A stretch of DNA of 60,607 nucleotides from Rhodopila sp. (GTDB lineage: Bacteria > Pseudomonadota > Alphaproteobacteria > Acetobacterales > Acetobacteraceae). The stretch is taken from positions 1 through 60,607 of the forward strand of contig JANXLQ010000024.1 of NCBI GenBank assembly GCA_025355085.1. Direction: 5' to 3'. The notes under the pieces are model-generated. The model did not search any database, was not told the DNA's origin, and saw only the letters and a program-made list of their open reading frames with translations. Positions 13,994 through 32,142 of the stretch are shown one piece after another. How positions within the stretch are numbered: position 1 is the stretch's first letter; every line of letters begins with the position of its first letter. A program made the translations under genes and the position numbers.

Positions 13994-14428
13994 CTAAACC
14001 AATCGCCACTGCACCAAAGTAAACGGTGGGCTGGCGGTCTCATGATGCTCGAACACCGCTTCGACCGCCGCGCCGATAGGCACATCCTGTTTTGGATCGC
14101 CCAACAGATTTCCTACCATCCGCACATTGCCTGCACCCGGTAATTCGACCAATGCCGCGATATAGGGTCCGTGGCCGTTCAGCGCCGGATGCACCGGATG
14201 CCAGACACGTTGATAGCTGTAGATCGTGCCCCGACCTTCGATTTCTCGCCAATCGAGATCGAAGCCGTTGCAGCGGTGGCAGATCCACTCCGGACCCCAC
14301 TGCCAGTGATTGCAGCCCTTGCAGTACTGAATGAGCAGCTTGCCTTTGCGCGTACCTTCCCAGTACGGGGTGGACAATCCATCGGCGCCGGAGGACGGGG
14401 CAGGTAGGCCTTCGGGTAAATACGACAT
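13994..14428 (-). CDS. Zn-ribbon/OB-fold DUF35 protein, partner of the thiolase-like protein
   Basis: 144 residues. The N-terminal rubredoxin-like zinc ribbon has C-x2-C pairs (YCKGCNH and ICHRCNG), followed by an OB-fold domain (GRGTIYSYQRVWHP and later a PYIAALVELP strand). DUF35 proteins bind thiolase-fold or HMG-CoA-synthase-like partners and can form a channel or the active complex, as in the Ltp2-ChsH2(DUF35) steroid side-chain retro-aldolase. ATG 14428 overlaps the upstream thiolase-like stop as TGATG, so the two are translationally coupled; a GTG just before it at 14431 is possible but less likely. Confidence 0.85.
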   Translation of the reverse strand: MSYLPEGLPAPSSGADGLSTPYWEGTRKGKLLIQYCKGCNHWQWGPEWICHRCNGFDLDWREIEGRGTIYSYQRVWHPVHPALNGHGPYIAALVELPGAGNVRMVGNLLGDPKQDVPIGAAVEAVFEHHETASPPFTLVQWRLV

Positions 14429-15609
14429 CACAACGTGGCCTCCGAACCCAGGATCAAGGAGCTGACAGGTGTAACCATTGGGCCACCGATGACAATGACG
14501 GCGTCGCTTTTATTGGCTTGATTGACGGCGGTGCCGCGTATCTGGCGGACGGCTTCGTTCACCAGTTCCAAACCGTGCATGTAACATTCGGCCAGATTGC
14601 CGCCGCTGGTATTGAGCGGCATTTTCCCTGTTGGGGAGATCAAATTTTCCAGGCGCAACAGATCGTTGGCTTCCTCCGGCTTGCAGAAACCGTGTTCGAC
14701 CAGACTCATGAGCACGCCGCCGGTGAAATTTTCGTAGCACTGAACGACATCAATGTCCTGCGGACCCATTTTAGCCATGTTATACAGGTTTGGCGCGACC
14801 GTTGCGAAGTGAGAACTGGCATAGTTCGGCGCGTTATGCACCGGCGCGGCACAGCGATGATCGGACCCTCCCGCAACACCCAGCAGATAACTGGCTTTGT
14901 GCGGCAGGTCTTTCGCCCGATCCGCCGGCATAATGATCACAGCGGCGGCGCCGTCGTTTTCAAGACAGCAATCGAACAGGTGGAACGGCTCAACGATCCA
15001 GCGGGACGCATCGTATTTTGCCTCGTCCAGCGGGCGTCCGTACATCACTGCGCGCGGGTTGTTTTGCGCATGATGATAAGAAGCCATAGAGATCGCGCGT
15101 AACGCGTCCTGCTTGACGCCGTGATCGTGCATGAAGCGCACGACCTTCATGACGAATTTCTGGGCCGGCGACATCACGCCGTAAGGGATGGTGAACGCAT
15201 CGTCGCCCGACGCCAGCGGTGCCCCCGTCCCTCGTCCAAACCTTGCGAACTGACCTTGTGCCAATGCTCGGAATGCCACGACGCAGTTAGCCGTGCCGGA
15301 GGTTATCGCCGCCGCTGCATTACCGACCGCCGCCGCGACACCGCCGCCGCCACCGCCCCACTGCATGTTGGAGAACCGCAACTCCTTCGTTCCCAGCGCC
15401 GCCGCCAGCCGCGAAGGGTCGTTACGGTCGTTGGAGTAGGAGGCAAACCCGTCGATATCCTTGGGGTCGATGCCCGCATCTTTGGCGGCTGCCAGAATGG
15501 CCTGAAGTGCAAGCTTGAACTCGCTGTCCGGCGATTGGCCATGTTTATAATACTGCGTCTCGCCGATACCCGCGATGACTACTTTTCCGCGTAGCGTTCG
15601 TTCCGTCAT
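14428..15609 (-). CDS. Thiolase-fold protein lacking the nucleophilic cysteine (Ltp-like)
   Basis: 393 residues with the thiolase fold: GIGETQYYKHG start, FSNMQWGGGGGGVAA at the position of the usual NxxCxSG nucleophile, CLENDGAAAVI, and NTSGGNLAECYMHG in place of the usual GGxxAxGHPxGA. The nucleophilic Cys is replaced by Gly, so ordinary Claisen thiolysis is unlikely. Relatives in the lipid-transfer/thiolase group pair with DUF35 proteins, and some are retro-aldolases. It starts at ATG 15609 with GGGGAGG 7 bases upstream. It is coupled to the DUF35 gene and divergent from the P450. Confidence 0.85.
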   Translation of the reverse strand: MTERTLRGKVVIAGIGETQYYKHGQSPDSEFKLALQAILAAAKDAGIDPKDIDGFASYSNDRNDPSRLAAALGTKELRFSNMQWGGGGGGVAAAVGNAAAAITSGTANCVVAFRALAQGQFARFGRGTGAPLASGDDAFTIPYGVMSPAQKFVMKVVRFMHDHGVKQDALRAISMASYHHAQNNPRAVMYGRPLDEAKYDASRWIVEPFHLFDCCLENDGAAAVIIMPADRAKDLPHKASYLLGVAGGSDHRCAAPVHNAPNYASSHFATVAPNLYNMAKMGPQDIDVVQCYENFTGGVLMSLVEHGFCKPEEANDLLRLENLISPTGKMPLNTSGGNLAECYMHGLELVNEAVRQIRGTAVNQANKSDAVIVIGGPMVTPVSSLILGSEATL

Positions 15610-15774: not shown

Positions 15775-17037
15775 ATGAACGCACCGGCCCGGGTTGACCC
15801 GCGTCAAGACGCCTATCGCACGCCGATCGAGCAGATCGACGTCAGTAATCCGCATTTATACCAAGACGATACGTGGCGACCGTATTTCGAACGCCTGCGC
15901 CTGGAAGACCCGGTGCATTGGTGCGAAAATGGCATGTACGGCGCGTTCTGGTCGATCACTCGCTACCGCGACATCATGGCTGTGGATACCGACCACCGGG
16001 CGTTTTCCTCCGATGCGCTGATGGGCGGCATCGTGTTGCGCGACCTGCCGATGGATTTCCGCCGCCCGAGTTTCATCTCGATGGACCCGCCAAAGCACGA
16101 CGAGCAACGCAAGATCGTGGCGCCGATCGTCGCCCCGATGAATCTCGCCAATCTCTCCGGCACTATTCGTGAACGGGTAGGCCGCATCCTCGACGGGCTG
16201 CCGCGCGGCGAAACGTTCGACTGGGTCGAACGGGTCTCGGTCGAACTGACAACGCAGATGCTCGCCACCCTGTTCGATTTCCCGTTCTCTGAACGCGATA
16301 AACTTACCTACTGGTCGAATGTCGCCACGGTGAATACGCGCGCCGGTTCGGAAGTTGATTCCGAGGCCAAACGGAATGAGATACTGGACAAGGCGGTCGA
16401 ATATTTTACAGAACTTTGGCATGAGCGGGCTAGCCAGCCGCCGCGGCCGGACCTGATCTCGATGCTGGCGCATGGGGAGGCGACACGCGATCTGCCGTCG
16501 CGCCCGCACGAATTCATGGGCAATCTTCTGTTATTGATTGTAGGTGGCAACGACACTACGAGGAACTCGATTTCCGGCGGGTTGCTGGCTTTGAACCAGT
16601 ATCCCGATGAATATCGCAAGCTGCGTGAAAACCCCGCGTTGGTGACTGGTATGGTGCCGGAGATCATCCGTTGGCAGACGCCGGTTATCCATATGCGGCG
16701 CACTGCTCTTGAGGACACAAAGGTCGGGGGAAAAACGATCCGCAAAGGCGACAAGGTCGCAATGTGGTATCTGTCGGGCAATCGCGACGAAGATGCCATC
16801 GAACGGGCCGACGACTTCATCATCGACCGCGCCCGTCCGCGCCAACACCTGTCGTTTGGGTTCGGCATCCATCGCTGCGTCGGCAATCGATTGGCGGAGA
16901 TGCAACTGACGATCCTGTGGGAAGAAATCCTGAAGCGCAAACTACCAATGATCGAGGTCGTTGGCGAACCGGCACGCGGCTACTCCAACGTCCTGCGGTC
17001 GATCGGTTCCCTGCCAGTGCGTATTCCCGTGGCCTGA
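15775..17037 (+). CDS. Cytochrome P450, CYP153-like alkane terminal hydroxylase
   Basis: 420 residues. The haem-binding loop is FGFGIHRCVG with the Cys ligand at about residue 368; the I-helix carries VGGNDTTRNS and the K-helix EIIRW. Long stretches (SMDPPKHDEQRKIVAP, SVELTTQMLATLFDFP, MWYLSGNRDE, FIIDRARPRQHLSFGFG) match what I know of CYP153, soluble bacterial P450s that hydroxylate the terminal carbon of n-alkanes, fatty acids or terpenes. The usual ferredoxin and ferredoxin reductase genes are not adjacent, so electrons must come from elsewhere. It is followed by an acyl-CoA synthetase. RBS GGGAG before ATG 15775. Confidence 0.88.
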   Translation: MNAPARVDPRQDAYRTPIEQIDVSNPHLYQDDTWRPYFERLRLEDPVHWCENGMYGAFWSITRYRDIMAVDTDHRAFSSDALMGGIVLRDLPMDFRRPSFISMDPPKHDEQRKIVAPIVAPMNLANLSGTIRERVGRILDGLPRGETFDWVERVSVELTTQMLATLFDFPFSERDKLTYWSNVATVNTRAGSEVDSEAKRNEILDKAVEYFTELWHERASQPPRPDLISMLAHGEATRDLPSRPHEFMGNLLLLIVGGNDTTRNSISGGLLALNQYPDEYRKLRENPALVTGMVPEIIRWQTPVIHMRRTALEDTKVGGKTIRKGDKVAMWYLSGNRDEDAIERADDFIIDRARPRQHLSFGFGIHRCVGNRLAEMQLTILWEEILKRKLPMIEVVGEPARGYSNVLRSIGSLPVRIPVA

Positions 17038-17049
17038 TGGAGGATGAGC

Positions 17050-18561
17050 ATGCCGGCTCCGTATTATGACTGTATTGCCCACCACGCGATGCGCCGGCCG
17101 GATTCTCTTGCGGCGGTCGATCTGGCGACCGGACGGCGGCACACCTACCGTCAGTTCCACGATCGGGTCGCTGGGTTGGCGGGTTCGTTGCGCAGCAGAG
17201 GAATCGCTCCAGGTGACCGGGTCGCGGTCCTGGCACCTAACTCCACCGATACGTTCGATGTTCAATTCGCCTGCGGTCGCATCGGGGCAATCTTCGTGCC
17301 ACTGAATTGGCGGCTGGCGCCACCGGAGTTGCGAGCGATCCTGGCGGATTGTGCGCCCGCGATGCTGATCTACGATCAGGAATTCGCCGATAGGGCAATG
17401 GAACTGGCAGAAGCGTGCGGCATTCTCGGGCTTATTTCGTTCGGTCCCGAATTCGAACGGATCGCACTGGATGGACAACCCATCGACCAGCCGGTGGCGG
17501 CGACGTTGGACGATATTTCGACGATTCTTTACACATCCGGCACGACAGGGCGTCCCAAAGGGGCAATCATTACTCATGGGATGAACTTCTGGAACACCGT
17601 TCACAGCATGAGCATGGCCGGCATCGCGCGATCCAACGTGTTTCTGTGCTTGCTGCCGTTGTTTCATACCGGGGGTCTGAACGTGTTTTCCTATCCGGTC
17701 TTTCAGGCCGGCGGCACGGTGGTGATTATGCGAACTTTCGAAGCAGGCGAGGCACTGCGGTTGATCGGCGATCCGTCAGTCGGGATCAGCCATCTGTTCG
17801 GGGTACCGGCAAATTACCAGTTCATGAGCCAGCATCCCCGGTTCGCGGAAACGGATATGAGCGGCCTGGTGTTTGCCGGTGTCGGGGGCGCGCCTACGCC
17901 CGACGCAATTCTGCTGACCTGGCAGAACCGGGGTGCTATTTTGCAACAAGGTTATGGCATGACGGAAACCAGTCCGCTGGTTCTGGTGCTCGATAGGGAA
18001 GATGCCGTCCGCAAGGCGGGGTCGGCCGGCAAGCCCGCCCTGAACATGGAAATGCGCGTGGTTGGGGATGATGGCGTGGACTCGCCATCCGGAACAATCG
18101 GCGAGTTGTGGGTGAAAGGTCCGAACATCACCAAGGGGTATTGGAACCAGCCGGAGGTAACCGCCGCGTCGTTCACCGGCGGCTGGCTGCACACCGGCGA
18201 TGCGGCCCTGGTCGATGAGGAGGGGTTTTACTTCATCGTGGACCGCTGGAAGGACATGTATATCTCGGGCGGGGAGAATGTTTATCCGGCGGAGGTGGAG
18301 AATGTTCTCTATCAGAACGAGTCAATTGCCGAGGCCGCCGTGATCGGCATCTCCGACACGCGCTGGGGGCAGGTTGGGCGGGCTGTGGTGGTGGTGAAAC
18401 CCGGCCGGACGTTGACCGAGGACGATGTCGTTGCGCATTGCGCTGCCAATCTGGCGCGCTACAAGCTGCCGCAATCGGTGGTGTTTACCGATGTGCTGCC
18501 ACGCAACGCGACGGGGAAGGTGCATAAGCCGACCTTGCGGCGGGAGTTTGGGGAGGGTTGA
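17050..18561 (+). CDS. Acyl-CoA synthetase (AMP-binding, fatty-acid type)
   Basis: About 503 residues. The ATP loop YTSGTTGRPKGA lies near residue 160, with GYGMTETSP, the GWLHTGDAA hinge region, ISGGENVYPAEVE, and the C-terminal catalytic Lys in NATGKVHKPTLR. It activates a carboxylic acid to its CoA thioester. ATG 17050 is preferred because GGAGG (17039-17043) is 6 bases upstream; ATG 17044, in frame, is too close to it. It lies 12 bases after the P450 stop and so is very likely co-transcribed, which makes the P450's oxidised (carboxylic) product a plausible substrate. Confidence 0.9.
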   Translation: MPAPYYDCIAHHAMRRPDSLAAVDLATGRRHTYRQFHDRVAGLAGSLRSRGIAPGDRVAVLAPNSTDTFDVQFACGRIGAIFVPLNWRLAPPELRAILADCAPAMLIYDQEFADRAMELAEACGILGLISFGPEFERIALDGQPIDQPVAATLDDISTILYTSGTTGRPKGAIITHGMNFWNTVHSMSMAGIARSNVFLCLLPLFHTGGLNVFSYPVFQAGGTVVIMRTFEAGEALRLIGDPSVGISHLFGVPANYQFMSQHPRFAETDMSGLVFAGVGGAPTPDAILLTWQNRGAILQQGYGMTETSPLVLVLDREDAVRKAGSAGKPALNMEMRVVGDDGVDSPSGTIGELWVKGPNITKGYWNQPEVTAASFTGGWLHTGDAALVDEEGFYFIVDRWKDMYISGGENVYPAEVENVLYQNESIAEAAVIGISDTRWGQVGRAVVVVKPGRTLTEDDVVAHCAANLARYKLPQSVVFTDVLPRNATGKVHKPTLRREFGEG

Positions 18562-18689: not shown

Positions 18690-19865
18690 CTAACCCCGCA
18701 TCCCCAGCCGTTCCGACACAATGCGCGCCCCATCCGCCATCGCGCGAAGCTTCGCCCAAACGACATCCTCGGCCACTTTGCCGCGGCCGGCGGACGTGTC
18801 GAACCCGCAATCGGTCCCGGCCATCACTCGGGTGGGGTCGCCGACGACCTGGATTACGCATTCCAGCCGGTCGGCCACAACCTCGGGGTGCTCGACGAAG
18901 TTCGTCAGCGGATCGATCACTCCGGCGACGATCACCTGCCCGTCATCCAGCGGTAGATCCTTCAAACACCGATATTCGTGGGCGTGGCGGGGGTTGGCAA
19001 ACGGCAGCACCCAGCCGCCCACTTTCGCCCGGCTGATCGTCGGCAGGATGTCATGCAAATCGACATCGCAATCGTGCGGCCCTTCGTAGTTGCCCCAACA
19101 GGCGTGAATGCGGACGCGATCCCGAGGAACATTCACCAATGCTTCGTTGATCGTTCCCACCACCCGTTCGGCGAAGTCTATGAAGTGGCCGAGCGGCCGG
19201 TCCTGGAACGAAACATGCCGCTCCAACGCCAAATCCGGAGCATCGATCTGCAACAAAAACCCAGCCCCGGCGATCGCCTCGTATTCCACCCGCAGCGCCT
19301 GTCCCAAAGCGTGCAAATACGCATCCTCGGTGTCGTAATGTTCGTTCAGCAGCGCGGCGGCGATGATGCCGGGCGACGGTGCGGTCATAAACGGTTCGGC
19401 GAAGCCTCCCTCCACTTCCGACAAGGTGGCGAGGAATTCGTCGCATTCGGCTTTCACCAGCGCGGGGTCCAGATACGTCACTGCACCGATTGCTTTTGGT
19501 AACGCACCGCGATTGCTGACCGACCGTTTGACGCCGTCCTGTTCGGCGGCCCACGCCCGGTAACCGGGATACTTCGCGACATCCGCCATGGTTCGGCGAA
19601 TCCAGCTTCCACCAAAGCCCGTCATGCGCCGGCGGACGTACAGGAAGAATGCCTCCCGCTGTTGTTCGCCGTTATTGCCAACGTCGATACCGGATGCGAT
19701 CTGCTGCCGCACGACGTGCCGCGTCGCGACCTTCCCGGCTTTATCCAGCGCGGCTTCGTCGATGTCCTCGCCCTCCGCTCGGCGGGCGTACATCTCGGTC
19801 AATGCGGCCGGCCGAGGCAAACTACCGGTATGGGTGGTCAGAATACGATCCGTGCTGCCAAGCAT
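18690..19865 (-). CDS. Cobalamin-independent methionine synthase-family protein (MetE C-domain only)
   Basis: 391 residues, about half of MetE, corresponding to its zinc-containing C-terminal barrel. The Zn-ligand pattern is visible as HACWGN near residue 255 and GTDCGF near residue 350. The start TTHTGSLPRP is the family signature. Stand-alone MetE-like barrels include epoxyalkane:CoM transferase and other alkylthiol transferases, so homocysteine methylation should not be assumed. ATG 19865 overlaps the preceding desulfhydrase-like gene's stop as TGATG, so the two are coupled and likely act on related sulfur compounds. Confidence 0.85.
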   Translation of the reverse strand: MLGSTDRILTTHTGSLPRPAALTEMYARRAEGEDIDEAALDKAGKVATRHVVRQQIASGIDVGNNGEQQREAFFLYVRRRMTGFGGSWIRRTMADVAKYPGYRAWAAEQDGVKRSVSNRGALPKAIGAVTYLDPALVKAECDEFLATLSEVEGGFAEPFMTAPSPGIIAAALLNEHYDTEDAYLHALGQALRVEYEAIAGAGFLLQIDAPDLALERHVSFQDRPLGHFIDFAERVVGTINEALVNVPRDRVRIHACWGNYEGPHDCDVDLHDILPTISRAKVGGWVLPFANPRHAHEYRCLKDLPLDDGQVIVAGVIDPLTNFVEHPEVVADRLECVIQVVGDPTRVMAGTDCGFDTSAGRGKVAEDVVWAKLRAMADGARIVSERLGMRG

Positions 19866-20869
19866 CAGAGGGCACCTTCGAGGAACATGTTGTAACCAAA
19901 CAGACCGACCGCGCCACCAGTGTGCAGGAACACGACGGTTTGCCCCGCCGCCAGCTCGCCTTTGCGGATCAGGTCGATCATCCCTGCCATCGCTTTGCCG
20001 GAGTAAACCGGGTCTAAAAGAATCCCTTCCTCCTGCGCCATCATGCGAACCGCCTCGCCCATGCCCTCGGTGGGGATGCCGTAGCCGGCGCCGACATAAT
20101 CGCAGTTGGCGACGACCGATTCACGCGGGATACCGCCCTTCATCCCGACGTATTCGGCGGTAGCCAGGGCCAGTTTATACACATTCTCCTCTTGCCGGTC
20201 CCGAGGCAGGCGGACGCCGATACCAAGCACGGCAACGCCCGCGTTCATGCCCTCCAGGCCGACGACCAGGCCGGCGTGTGTCCCGGCGCTGCCGGTCGCG
20301 GTGACGATGCGGTCGATCCGCAGGCCCATCTCATCGGCTTGCTGCATCAGTTCCTGGGCGCAGGAGACATAACCGAGCGCCCCGACTTTGTTCGATCCGC
20401 CGCCTGGGATGACATAGACCGCCTGCCCTTCCGCCCGCAGTTCGGCGCCGCGCTTTTCGGCTTCGGCGTTCATGTCCGTGCCGCCAGGACGATATTCGAT
20501 CCGGCAGCCGAAGAGCTTGTCCAGCAGCACGTTGCCGCTGCCGAGGTAGTCTCGGTCGTTGGTGTCGATGCGGTGCTCCAGCAGCGCCGTGCAGATCATG
20601 CCGAATTTGCGGGCGACGGCGGCGGTTTGGCGGACGTGGTTGGATTGAACGGCGCCCTGGGTGACGATGTGGGTGGCGCCTTGCTCCTTCGCCTCCCCGA
20701 TCAGCCATTCAAGTTTGCGGACTTTGTTGCCGCCGGTCGCCACCACCGTGCAGTCGTCGCGTTTGATCCATATGTCCGGCCCGCCCAAAGTGCGCGTCAG
20801 GTTGTCCAACCGCTCCAGCGGAGTGGGGGCCGGGAATAGGCGAACCCGCGGGAATCGAGCAAGATGCAT
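19865..20869 (-). CDS. PLP-dependent D-cysteine desulfhydrase / ACC-deaminase family enzyme
   Basis: 334 residues from ATG 20869, which has GGAGA 8 bases upstream; the longer open frame to 21052 would run into the divergent msrP gene. Fold type II PLP enzyme: the Schiff-base Lys is in [10 protein letters not shown], followed by the [14 protein letters not shown] segment and the phosphate-binding GSAGTHAG loop near residue 195. The family includes D-cysteine desulfhydrase (DcyD, forming pyruvate, sulfide and ammonia) and ACC deaminase; sequence alone does not decide. Being coupled to a MetE-like Zn protein favours sulfur chemistry. Confidence 0.85.
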
Positions 20870-20992
20870 GAGCGTTCTCCTGAATGTGTCGTTTTGGACG
20901 TGTGACTTATGTTTAATTTCCTCCATCCCGCCTGATACGGCAATGTGTGGCTTTAAATACGTATAAACACGGCAACAGGTAAGGATCAGGCC

Positions 20993-21910
20993 ATGCATAT
21001 CGTCCAGCCGCGCTCGTGGGAGGTCTCGGAACGGCAGGTGACTCCCGAACACGTAGTATTGAACCGGCGCTCGTTGCTGGCGGGCGCTGGTGCGATGACC
21101 ATTCTGCCCGCGCTGGCGGCACGGGCGGACGTCACGGCGAACCCTGCGTTCACTGCCGGTCGTGCGCTGACGGAGGAAAAATACGCCACCACCTACAACA
21201 ATTATTACGAGTTCGGCGAAAGCAAAAACATCTGGAAGGATGCTCAGGCGCTAAAGCAACGCCCCTGGACGATCAAGCTCGACGGGATGATGGCCAAGCC
21301 GCGCACCATTGGCATCGACGACCTTCTGAAGCAGGTCTCGCTGGAGGAACGCATCTACCGCCATCGCTGTGTCGAAGCCTGGGCAATGACCGTTCCCTGG
21401 ACTGGTTTTCCGCTGTCCCAGCTTCTAAAAATCGCCGAACCGCTGAGTTCCGCGAAATATGTGGTATTCGAGACCGCACAGGACAAAACGATGTCCGGAC
21501 TGAATGCACCTTTCTACCCGTGGCCCTATGTGGAAGGTCTGACGATCGACGAAGCCGCCAACGATCTGGCATTCATCTCCACCGGCCTTTACGGTAAGCC
21601 GTTGCCGGCGCAAAACGGTGGGCCGATCCGGCTGAATCTGCCGTGGAAATACGGTTTCAAATCCGCCAAATCCATTGTGAAGATCACATTCACCGACAAA
21701 CGCCCGAAGACATTCTGGGAAGCCATCGGGCCCTCGGAATACGGTTTCTGGGCAAACGTGAACCCCGCCGTCGCGCACCCTCGCTGGAGCCAAGCCTCCG
21801 AACGGCTGCTCGGCAGCGATGAACGCGTGCCGACACAGATTTTTAATGGATACGCCGAACAGGTAGCTGCGCTATACTCCGACCGGAAAGCCGAGAAGCT
21901 ATTTATGTGA
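20993..21910 (+). CDS. msrP: Protein-methionine-sulfoxide reductase catalytic subunit
   Basis: 305 residues. The N-terminus has a twin-arginine signal ([25 protein letters not shown]). The body is the sulfite-oxidase-like molybdopterin fold with the Mo-ligand Cys in [18 protein letters not shown], and the family's [13 protein letters not shown] segment. MsrP repairs oxidised Met in periplasmic proteins, taking electrons from the quinone pool through the haem membrane protein MsrQ. AAGGA precedes ATG 20993. The downstream overlapping gene is not MsrQ but a much smaller membrane protein. Confidence 0.92.
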
Positions 21911-29854: not shown

Positions 29855-30739
29855 CTATCGGTTTCGTGCCGCCTCTGCGAGAATCTCTTTTGCCATCGGC
29901 AGCATCGCATAGTCTATCATCGCTCCCTGATAAGTCACCGCCCCCAAACCGGCCTTCTCCGCCGCTTCGAACGCCTCCAGCAAGCCCTTGAAGTAGGCCA
30001 CTTCTTCCGCCGTTGGCCGATACACGGCGTTGGCAATTGCGACGTGCGACGGATGCATCACCGCCACCCCGGTGTAGCCAATGTCCCGAGCGCGGCGGAT
30101 CAAACGCTCGACCGCCGGCAAATCGTCCTGCGCAACCCCGAAAATCCCCGCTATCGGATACATCGCCCCGCCTGCCCGGCTGTCCAGCACCATTTTCGAC
30201 GCGAGATACAATTGTTCCTCACCGCCGGTCGTCGCGCGAAATCCGAAGGCGCGGGCGAAATCACCGGACACCGGGCCGCTGAAGGCCCCATGGATGCCGC
30301 GCACGCGCGGACTGGCTTTTGCCAAATGGTATGCGTCGTACATTCCCTGCGCCGTCTCCGGCAGCGGCAATATTCCGACGCTGCCATGTGCAACACCGGC
30401 TCGGCCTTCAGCGTAGCTCAACAGATCGTGCAGCCGGCGGATTTCGTCCGCCGACGAAACTTTCGGCGGCACAATGGCGGTCAGGCCATCGGTGACGGCG
30501 GCCGCTATCTCGGCTTCGGTGCCGTCGTACAGTGGCTGAATGCGGACAAACGCCCCCACGCCCGCGTCACGCAATTCATGAATTTCGCTCTTCAAATACC
30601 CCATCGCCTGCGGCTTGAACTGGGGCGGAACCGAGTCCTCGATATCCAGCACAACGGCACCGGGAGCAGCGCGAATCGCCTTCCCAACCCAGTCGCGACG
30701 ATGGGCGGGCACGAACAGCGCGGATCGAATCGGCCACAT
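29855..30739 (-). CDS. HpcH/HpaI aldolase, CitE-like (citryl/malyl-CoA lyase family)
   Basis: 294 residues. The N-terminal SALFVPAHR and VVLDIEDSVPPQFK segments and the Mg-binding LPLPETAQGM (Glu) and later GIHGAFSGPVSGD segments match CitE-like lyases, which cleave C-C bonds in CoA esters such as malyl-CoA or citramalyl-CoA. Without citD/citF neighbours it is not citrate lyase. Its position next to the type III CoA-transferase (same strand) suggests a shared CoA-ester pathway. GGAG is about 10 bases before ATG 30739. Confidence 0.85.
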   Translation of the reverse strand: MWPIRSALFVPAHRRDWVGKAIRAAPGAVVLDIEDSVPPQFKPQAMGYLKSEIHELRDAGVGAFVRIQPLYDGTEAEIAAAVTDGLTAIVPPKVSSADEIRRLHDLLSYAEGRAGVAHGSVGILPLPETAQGMYDAYHLAKASPRVRGIHGAFSGPVSGDFARAFGFRATTGGEEQLYLASKMVLDSRAGGAMYPIAGIFGVAQDDLPAVERLIRRARDIGYTGVAVMHPSHVAIANAVYRPTAEEVAYFKGLLEAFEAAEKAGLGAVTYQGAMIDYAMLPMAKEILAEAARNR

Positions 30740-30822
30740 TGGTCAGGTCTCCTCAGGCATTGCAGTCCAAGTTTGCGAGGATGCGCCGCGTGGCGCAATC
30801 GTGCGTGCGAATATCCCTTGCT

Positions 30823-30954
30823 ATGTCGTATCCAACCCATCTGCTGCCAACCACCGTCGTGGGCAGTTACCCGCAGCCGCTTTCCGTTCACCCAATTGCC
30901 CTGCCACACAAACCGGCCGGAAAGGCTCCGACCGGCATAATGTGCAGCCGGTAA
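30823..30954 (+). pseudogene. N-terminal fragment of a MetE-like gene
   Basis: From ATG 30823 the frame begins SYPTHLLPTTVVGSYPQP, the unmistakable opening of MetE-like barrel proteins, then changes abruptly after about 18 residues to an unrelated basic sequence and stops at 30954. The rest of the gene is absent; the next gene is a CoA-transferase on the other strand. This is a truncated relative of the intact MetE-like gene at 18.7 kb. Confidence 0.7.
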
Positions 30955-30957
30955 AGC

Positions 30958-32142
30958 CTACCCCTTCATGATCGCTTCGATCTCTTGTTCCGAGCATCCC
31001 GCTTCCACCAGGATCTCCCGGGTGTGCTGGCCTAGCGTGGGCCACGGGCGGTGGACGTTGGGCGGGGTTTTAGAAAACCGGGCAGGGATTGCCGGGATCA
31101 CCACATCGCCCTCAACCGGATGCTTATGGGCCTCGAAGTAACCTGTCTCGGTGAGGTACGGGTCCGTAAACAGCTCATCGAGACCGTTCGCCTTGCCGCA
31201 GGGGATATCCGCCGGACGTAGTTCCGCCAGCCATTCGCCGGTGGTACGCAGCTTCATTCCCTCAGTCAGCGTGGCATAGACCGCGTCGATGTTCTTCGTT
31301 CGCGCCGGAACCGAGTCAAAGCGCGGATCGTGAATCAGGTTAGCCACACCCATCGCCTCGAACAGCTTGCTCCATTGCTCGTTGCTGTGGGCAATCACGC
31401 TAATGTAGCCGTCCTTGGTCTGATACGGCCGGCGGTGCGGCGTCATCATCCGCGGGTAACCCAGGCCCTTTTCCGGTTCCCCCAGCGTGCCGTGCCACAT
31501 GTGCTCGACCAACATGAACGACAGGATGGTCTCCATCATCGGCAGGTGAATTTCCTGCCCCTGCCCCGTGCGCTCCCGATGGAACAGCGCCATGCCGATC
31601 ATCGACGCCAACGTGACCCCCGTCAGCTTGTCCACCATCACGGTGGGGAAATAACGCGGCTCCCCATCCGGACCGGCGTTCAAAGCCGCAGTTCCCGACA
31701 CACCTTGGATCAGGTCGTCATACGCCGGAAATTCCTGCATCGAGCTGCCTTTCCGGAAGCCGGAGGCACACGCGTAGATCAACTTTGGGTTCCGTGCCGA
31801 CAGCGTTTCGTAATCCAGCCCCAGGCGTTGCGCCGCACCGATTCGCATATTATGCACGAACACGTCGGCCGTCTCGACCAGCTTCAGAATCGCTTCCCGC
31901 GCCTCCGGCTTCTTCAGGTCGATCGCCAAGCTACGCTTGTTGCGGTTGAGGTTGGCATAGTACGATCCCATGCCCGGTGTGCGCGACGGTCCGATCAACC
32001 GGGTGGAATCCCCCTGTGTGGTCTCCACCTTGATGACATCGGCCCCCATATCGCCCAACGTCTGGGAACACATCGGACCCAGGACGACAGTCGTAATGTC
32101 GATGACCCGAATACCCGTCAGCGGGCCGGTTGCTTGTGTCAC
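30958..32142 (-). CDS. Type III CoA-transferase (CaiB/BaiF family)
   Basis: 394 residues. The N-terminal LTGIRVIDITTVVLGPMCSQTLGDMGADVIKVE is the family signature, with the RNKRSLAIDLKK segment and the catalytic Asp in the PTVMVDKLTG segment near residue 172. It moves CoA between carboxylic acids (for example formyl-CoA, succinyl-CoA or crotonobetainyl-CoA acceptors); the substrate is not predictable from sequence. The start is GTG 32142 with AGGAAG 6 bases upstream. It precedes the CitE-like lyase on the same strand, separated by the MetE fragment. Confidence 0.9.
   Translation of the reverse strand: MTQATGPLTGIRVIDITTVVLGPMCSQTLGDMGADVIKVETTQGDSTRLIGPSRTPGMGSYYANLNRNKRSLAIDLKKPEAREAILKLVETADVFVHNMRIGAAQRLGLDYETLSARNPKLIYACASGFRKGSSMQEFPAYDDLIQGVSGTAALNAGPDGEPRYFPTVMVDKLTGVTLASMIGMALFHRERTGQGQEIHLPMMETILSFMLVEHMWHGTLGEPEKGLGYPRMMTPHRRPYQTKDGYISVIAHSNEQWSKLFEAMGVANLIHDPRFDSVPARTKNIDAVYATLTEGMKLRTTGEWLAELRPADIPCGKANGLDELFTDPYLTETGYFEAHKHPVEGDVVIPAIPARFSKTPPNVHRPWPTLGQHTREILVEAGCSEQEIEAIMKG

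Follow-up and report, generated by a model that had tools for sequence, protein, structure and literature searches.

The gene pair described here raises the question of what a protein with a thiolase fold does when the nucleophilic cysteine of thiolases is gone and its gene overlaps that of a DUF35 protein. Both genes lie in a stretch of 60,607 nucleotides from Rhodopila sp. (contig JANXLQ010000024.1), referred to below as the window, which belongs to a host genome of 4.94 Mb in 471 contigs (completeness 100, contamination 2.9). A first-pass annotation had likened the pair to the Ltp2-ChsH2(DUF35) complex, in which a thiolase-fold protein and a DUF35 partner perform retro-aldol cleavage of a CoA ester. 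The features on which the argument relies are collected in Table 1.

Table 1. Features of the window gene pair, its neighbourhood and related loci
Feature	Position	Strand	Evidence
Thiolase-fold protein without Cys (393 aa), proposed as the catalytic subunit of a retro-aldolase for CoA thioesters	14428..15609	-	PF22691, 6ok1_A, fold match
DUF35 partner, zinc ribbon C-x2-C-x10-C-x2-C plus OB fold	13994..14431	-	PF01796, PF12172, 6ok1_B
Stop/start overlap of the thiolase-fold and DUF35 genes (GTGA or TGATG)	14428..14431	-	sequence
Gly85-Gly90 run at the thiolase nucleophile place, Cys column = Gly88	15340..15357	-	alignment with L134 and EbN1 thiolase
YENF motif, Y292 = Tyr294 (catalytic base) of TcLtp2	14725..14736	-	alignment; roles from an excerpt of PMC12329534
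NTSGGNLAECYMHG, Y343 = Tyr344 (catalytic acid) of TcLtp2, at the thiolase His place	14572..14613	-	alignment; excerpt of PMC12329534
CYP153-like cytochrome P450, divergent, possible pathway partner	15775..17037	+	PDB 7ant 557 bits, CYP153A7 3rwl 545.9 bits
AMP-binding acyl-CoA synthetase that may activate the substrate with CoA	17044..18561	+	PF00501 283.1 bits
ACAD-aldolase-DUF35-MaoC-CitE loci: L048, L049, L053, L057, L058, L060, L077, L079, L080, L081			

The closest PDB match of the thiolase-fold protein is Ltp2 (6ok1_A; E 1.8e-76, 260.9 bits, the next match scoring 139.4), and in Pfam it matches PF22691, Thiolase_C_1, with 96.6 bits. Of the NCBIfam models NF005892 ('lipid-transfer protein' PRK07855) fits it best; the score of 366.9 bits is below the curated Ltp2 cut-off of 469 that was passed by proteins of two of the 249 sampled genomes (682.3 and 554.9 bits). 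An AlphaFold2 model built from 26 sequences reached a mean pLDDT of 79.2 and a pTM of 0.86, with residues 336-343, Y343 among them, below 50. When this model was searched with Foldseek, 6ok1 occupied ranks 1 and 2 and the Sal-Shy(DUF35) complex 9myr rank 3, with SCP2 thiolases lower; the fold match to 6ok1 had a TM of 0.86/0.88 and 36% identity in the fold alignment. By its match to solved structures of the superfamily, the predicted structure is a thiolase fold. The partner is identified as OB_ChsH2_C plus zf-ChsH2 by two Pfam models over their cut-offs (PF01796, 51.3 bits against 27.1; PF12172, 26.7 bits against 23.2) and by a Cys4 zinc ribbon, and its best PDB match is the other chain of the same complex, ChsH2(DUF35) (6ok1_B, E 3.6e-15).

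The active site was compared with two Cys-bearing reference rows, a host paralog of SCP2 type (L134, with NACASG, HDCF and GHPIGATG) and a thiolase of Aromatoleum EbN1. Relative to L134, the nucleophilic Cys is replaced by Gly88, the His and Cys of HDCF by Y292 and N294, and the GHP His by Y343; the nucleophilic Cys and GHP His of degradative and SCP2-type thiolases are both absent. The first-pass annotation had read NMQWGGGGGG at the nucleophile site and an altered His box, and both readings hold (residues 81-90 and 333-346). What it had not mentioned is the main point about these residues, namely that both catalytic tyrosines of Ltp2 are retained, as Y292 and Y343. According to an excerpt of PMC12329534, Tyr294 of TcLtp2, within the YDHF motif, acts as the base and Tyr344 as the acid, while His296 of the same motif is part of the oxyanion hole. 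The column of N294 holds this His296 in Ltp2 and Cys304 in Sal. As aligned, the window protein is the paired-tyrosine arrangement of Ltp2 with the third residue changed from His to Asn (YENF).

Relatives of the protein are encoded at 521 GTDB loci, found by six peptide patterns, of which the best 80 were used for locus counts. W84-G90, Y292-E-N-F295, C342 and Y343 are identical in all of these best 80 of 521, an identity that is partly built in since the search patterns include FSNMQWGG and NLAECYMH; because these residues recur in 80 of 80 loci, the altered motif is not a sequencing slip. The tree clade that holds the window protein and 28 other rows is here called the window family. Throughout its 29 rows Gly88, Y292 and Y343 are kept, and N294 is found in 28, with Ser in L119. 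Y292 and Y343 are likewise invariant in a 31-member alignment, two members of which score above the Ltp2 model cut-off and which includes L136, L137, L118 and L123 from the Ltp2 side. The absence of the cysteine from this thiolase-fold protein is a real observation, well supported by sequence; the activity and the complex are predicted. It has also to be asked whether the protein is a catalytically dead carrier of lipids or acyl-CoA, as the NF005892 label and the loss of both the thiolase Cys and His would allow. A mere carrier would not need the Tyr pair and Gly88 that 29 of 29 diverse rows keep, and the characterised relatives with the same Tyr pair are aldolases (excerpt of PMC12329534), so that we regard a carrier as very unlikely.

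The genes of the pair do overlap, as the first-pass annotation had stated: the DUF35 GTG start at 14431 (145 aa) shares four bases with the thiolase-fold stop (GTGA), and the next codon, ATG at 14428-14426 (144 aa), shares one (TGATG). Of the best 80 of 521 loci, 78 have enough sequence for this question (at least 450 bases downstream); in every one of these 78 the DUF35 gene follows directly and an overlapping DUF35 start is available, nearest to the four-base form in 72 and of the one-base form only in six; the other two loci end at a contig edge and match DUF35 all the same. The four zinc-ligand cysteines (CCCC) of DUF35 are present in 78 of 78 loci from the same best 80. A mirror-tree comparison of the two genes gives a correlation of 0.86 (78 loci), a value that common descent alone would yield. 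As to the role of the domain, the literature, as excerpted, holds opposite statements: the aldolase activity of Ltp2 from Comamonas TA441 requires the DUF35 domain (PMC12502768), and in earlier work it seemed unimportant for aldolase activity (PMC11321319). The coupling to DUF35 alone is insufficient to show aldolase chemistry, because an archaeal thiolase that bears its Cys (6esq) also has a DUF35 partner, and the partner by itself is therefore uninformative on the chemistry.

Two trees were computed, the first from 47 rows (24 window-family loci, the window, four rows from the model search and 18 others) and the second after removal of four long-branched rows. The 29 window-family rows, which include five taken out of plasmid records and four obtained by the family-model search, stand under a branch of their own (100/100). 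So do four Ltp2 rows (100/100), comprising the two proteins over the PRK07855 cut-off, TcLtp2 and one protein of pIBU218. Window family, Ltp2 rows and one Aromatoleum row join at 98/93 in the first tree and at 100/97 in the second, with the order inside the join unsettled, and the deeper forks are unsure because several long branches remain. Phylogeny had been named as a check by the first-pass annotation, and both trees place the window protein with Ltp2 and not with Cys-using thiolases. On these trees the window family is a relative of Ltp2 that lies outside the Ltp2 clade. The same placement bears on the reading of the protein as a thiolase or acyltransferase with a displaced cysteine, for example C342 beside Y343. 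C342, C214 and C215 are all kept in 80 of 80 loci (best 80 of 521), and 6esq is an instance of a Cys-bearing thiolase with a DUF35 partner. However, C342 is found in 27 of the 29 window-family rows, being Val in L120 and L141, and is Ala in TcLtp2; C214 and C215 belong to a DCC motif common to Ltp2, and the trees join the family to Ltp2 rather than to the Cys thiolase L134. A displaced-cysteine thiolase is rejected on the variation of C342 and the tree position, and we consider it quite unlikely.

In the host genome PF01796 is matched ten times and the NF005892 model eleven times. Nine DUF35 genes adjoin a thiolase-fold gene (contigs C17, C87, C176, C275, C296, C303, C305, C343 and C344; loci L152-L159 belong to these DUF35-paired contigs), and the tenth PF01796 match lies at a contig end. 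All nine DUF35-paired proteins show Gly at the nucleophile position and a Tyr at 292. At the position of the second Tyr they differ: four keep it (window, C343, C305, C176), four have His and one has Ala. The only Cys-bearing host protein in the alignment is L134 on C471, a contig with no PF01796 match. Since all nine have Gly there, loss of the Cys is the rule for the DUF35-paired host proteins, and it is ruled out as a peculiarity of the window gene. The absence of the cysteine to which the first-pass annotation had drawn attention is thus true of the window protein and yet not special to it, being common to a large superfamily; the novelty lies not in the Cys loss as such but in the YENF variant, in the breadth of the family and in the nine-pair repertoire. 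Two observations on individual paralogs may be added. On C303 a further thiolase-fold gene, more distantly related and outside the alignment, stands in tandem with the first, and the paralog of C275 (L006; L156:4729-5937) has a Cys right after the nucleophile column (GGCSF), where a displaced nucleophile is possible.

Among known systems, Ltp2-ChsH2(DUF35) of Thermomonospora curvata (6ok1) belongs to the clade nearest to the window family and shares with the window pair the thiolase fold, Gly in the nucleophile column, the Tyr pair (294/344 for 292/343) and a Cys4 zinc-ribbon DUF35. The window protein is 35-38% identical to the Ltp2 rows L136, L137 and L118. It differs in reading YENF where Ltp2 has YDHF, and its DUF35 is a separate gene of 144-145 aa, whereas in the Ltp2 system it is the tail of a MaoC protein (ChsH2), whose fused hydratase the window pair is without. 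Sal-Shy(DUF35) of Comamonas testosteroni (9myr), also a DUF35-coupled retro-aldolase, has in common the Gly in the nucleophile column and the Tyr at 292. In the excerpt of PMC12329534, Sal has YDCY with the catalytic Cys304 and a Gln (Gln352) at the 344 position, and Shy has a Cys3His1 zinc site in contrast to the canonical type of TcChsH2. The window pair has N294, Y343 and Cys4 instead, and its DUF35 zinc site is of the canonical type. A retro-aldolase with a standalone DUF35 gene in one operon is known from Mycolicibacterium neoaurum (Atf1-ChsH4); by the description in an excerpt of PMC10398937 it is Sal-like and acts on sterol side chains, which sets it apart.

A further comparison is offered by IpfD-IpfE of the ibuprofen plasmid pIBU218, identified by gene order, the IpfD record saying hypothetical. 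The presumed IpfD is likewise without the Cys, with Gly in its place, and has a Tyr at each of the two positions; an OB-fold partner gene adjoins its own. The window pair could be of this ibuprofen type. In the reaction proposed for IpfD, the CoA ester is first dioxygenated and the ring then loses its carboxyalkyl side chain; the order of that pathway is CoA ligase, dioxygenase and retro-aldolase (excerpt of PMC9195938). Five Burkholderiales loci of the window family have a CoA transferase, a Rieske oxygenase and a reductase near the pair (by tblastn in L106, L108 and L117, by annotation in L120 and L121), and this setting, by analogy, recalls ibuprofen degradation. On the other hand, IpfD has YDAF in place of YENF and joins the host paralog L128, apart from the window family, at 100/99 in the first tree and 100/100 in the second; no Rieske gene was found among the annotated or scanned genes adjoining the window pair; and the presumed IpfE (L124:1729-2127) appears to be without the zinc-ribbon Cys that the window DUF35 has. 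An ibuprofen-type role is therefore judged unlikely. The same plasmid carries, beside the presumed ipfDE, a second pair of OB-fold and lipid-transfer genes (L118:11588-13152), which belongs to the Ltp2 clade, has the YDHF motif and lies near enoyl-CoA hydratase and CoA transferase genes.

The divergent P450 and the ligase next to the window pair were also found within 6 kb of it in four of the seven closest GTDB loci (at least 90% identity; best 80 of 521), divergent at 148-176 bases in three of them and 3-5 kb off on the same strand in one; they are missing in L038, whose flanks cover 10 kb, and in L041 and L043, which have 3.1 and 4.8 kb of upstream sequence. Rhodopila globiformis DSM 161 has a 90% identical copy accompanied by a P450 and a ligase resembling those of the window. 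The two window neighbours suggest as substrate a branched or cyclic hydrocarbon acid that has been oxidised at its terminus and activated with CoA. Neighbours were counted by tblastn (at least 30% identity, within 6 kb) in the best 80 of 521 loci, whose contigs may be cut: TctC 24, acyl-CoA dehydrogenase (ACAD) 22, amidohydrolase_2 22, CoA transferases 21 and 18 (overlapping probes), MaoC 14, CitE 12, ligase 7, P450 5 (including one of 32% identity that is probably unrelated), FAD_binding_2 4, Rieske 3 and reductase 3. Ten of the best 80 loci, from Neoroseomonas, Roseomonas, Paracraurococcus and Siccirubricoccus, have the order ACAD-aldolase-DUF35-MaoC-CitE, a row reminiscent of steroid side-chain removal, in which dehydrogenase, hydratase and aldolase follow in that order. 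The adjacent MaoC resembles RipB/Ich (146.4 of 340 bits) and the adjacent CitE RipC/Ccl (169.6 of 375 bits), both below cut-off; because of this likeness the MaoC may serve the CitE lyase and not the aldolase, which weakens it as the hydratase partner in Neoroseomonas and its kin.

Elsewhere in the window, ORFs at 29855-32142 (minus strand) resemble by eye a CitE-type lyase and a CoA transferase, close together, and the second of them groups with CoA-transferase-like genes that lie near the pair in other genomes. An ORF at 19865-21052 (minus strand) resembles by eye a D-cysteine desulfhydrase, and the methionine-synthase-like gene at 18690-19865 (minus strand; PF01717) shares one base with this desulfhydrase-like ORF upstream.

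Retro-aldol chemistry is reversible in principle. The pair might then make bonds, by an aldol-type condensation in a biosynthetic pathway, and an acylating thiolase-DUF35 system, PhlABC, is described in an excerpt of PMC12329534. Against this stand the catabolic-looking neighbours (for example TctC in 24, acyl-CoA dehydrogenase in 22 and CoA ligase in 7 of the best 80 of 521 loci), and a bond-making role appears highly improbable.

The likeness to Ltp2 makes it necessary to consider steroids. KshA_C is a marker of steroid ring opening. The host genome gave no KshA_C match, and both genomes with a true Ltp2, used as control, have strong ones; steroid ring catabolism is thus not supported as a role in the host, and the substrate of the pair probably does not come through that route. 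The window family itself was found in 34 of 118 related genomes, host included (E 1e-90 or better). Among the 28 family-bearing Acetobacteraceae genomes examined of these 34, KshA_C is absent in 25, clear in G014 (91.7 bits) and marginal in G005 and G050, the window-family match of G050 being only 46% identical. Since all 28 share the taxonomic family of the window, the survey is silent on the Burkholderiales members, and the absence of KshA may be compatible with an attack on the side chain of steroids only.

Taking into account that: (i) the two proteins find the two chains of 6ok1 as their first matches; (ii) both catalytic tyrosines are in place, and (iii) the genes are paired, a complex analogous to Ltp2-ChsH2(DUF35), as the first-pass annotation had supposed, is the best-supported reading of the sequence, and we propose that the pair probably forms a heteromeric retro-aldolase of the Ltp2-DUF35 type acting on beta-hydroxyacyl-CoA. 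In the model, Y292 would take the proton from the beta-hydroxyl of the substrate and the C-C bond between the alpha and beta carbons would break. The resulting enolate of acetyl-CoA or propionyl-CoA would be held in an oxyanion site built by the N294 side chain, in place of the Ltp2 His, and by backbone amides of the Gly run, until it is protonated by Y343. A ketone or aldehyde would be released together with a short acyl-CoA. The DUF35 protein would sit on the flank of the aldolase dimer and shape the substrate cleft. The roles of the residues may have shifted, because the oxyanion His296 of Ltp2 is Asn in the window protein.

In the plasmid records, members of the window family go under acetyl-CoA acetyltransferase (H1, H5, H6, H7, H9) or, in the case of H8, hypothetical protein; the labels thiolase and lipid-transfer protein are given to more distant relatives. 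Among open-licence PMC papers no title or abstract opening naming the family was found. A broader reading, to which we give even chances, is that the window family is a large Tyr-Asn-Tyr family of CoA-thioester retro-aldolases serving the non-steroidal catabolism of Proteobacteria (oxidised hydrocarbons, terpenoid or aryl-alkanoic acids), and that the host owns a repertoire of nine C-C lyase pairs that databases list under acetyltransferase, thiolase or lipid-transfer protein. Such labels would predict the wrong reaction. If the proteins are retro-aldolases, many Proteobacteria could complete beta-oxidation without a thiolase when the 3-keto step is blocked by a tertiary or ring carbon, and the Asn, at the position of the His of Ltp2 and the Cys of Sal, would be a natural variant for studying how this position governs chain length and substrate.
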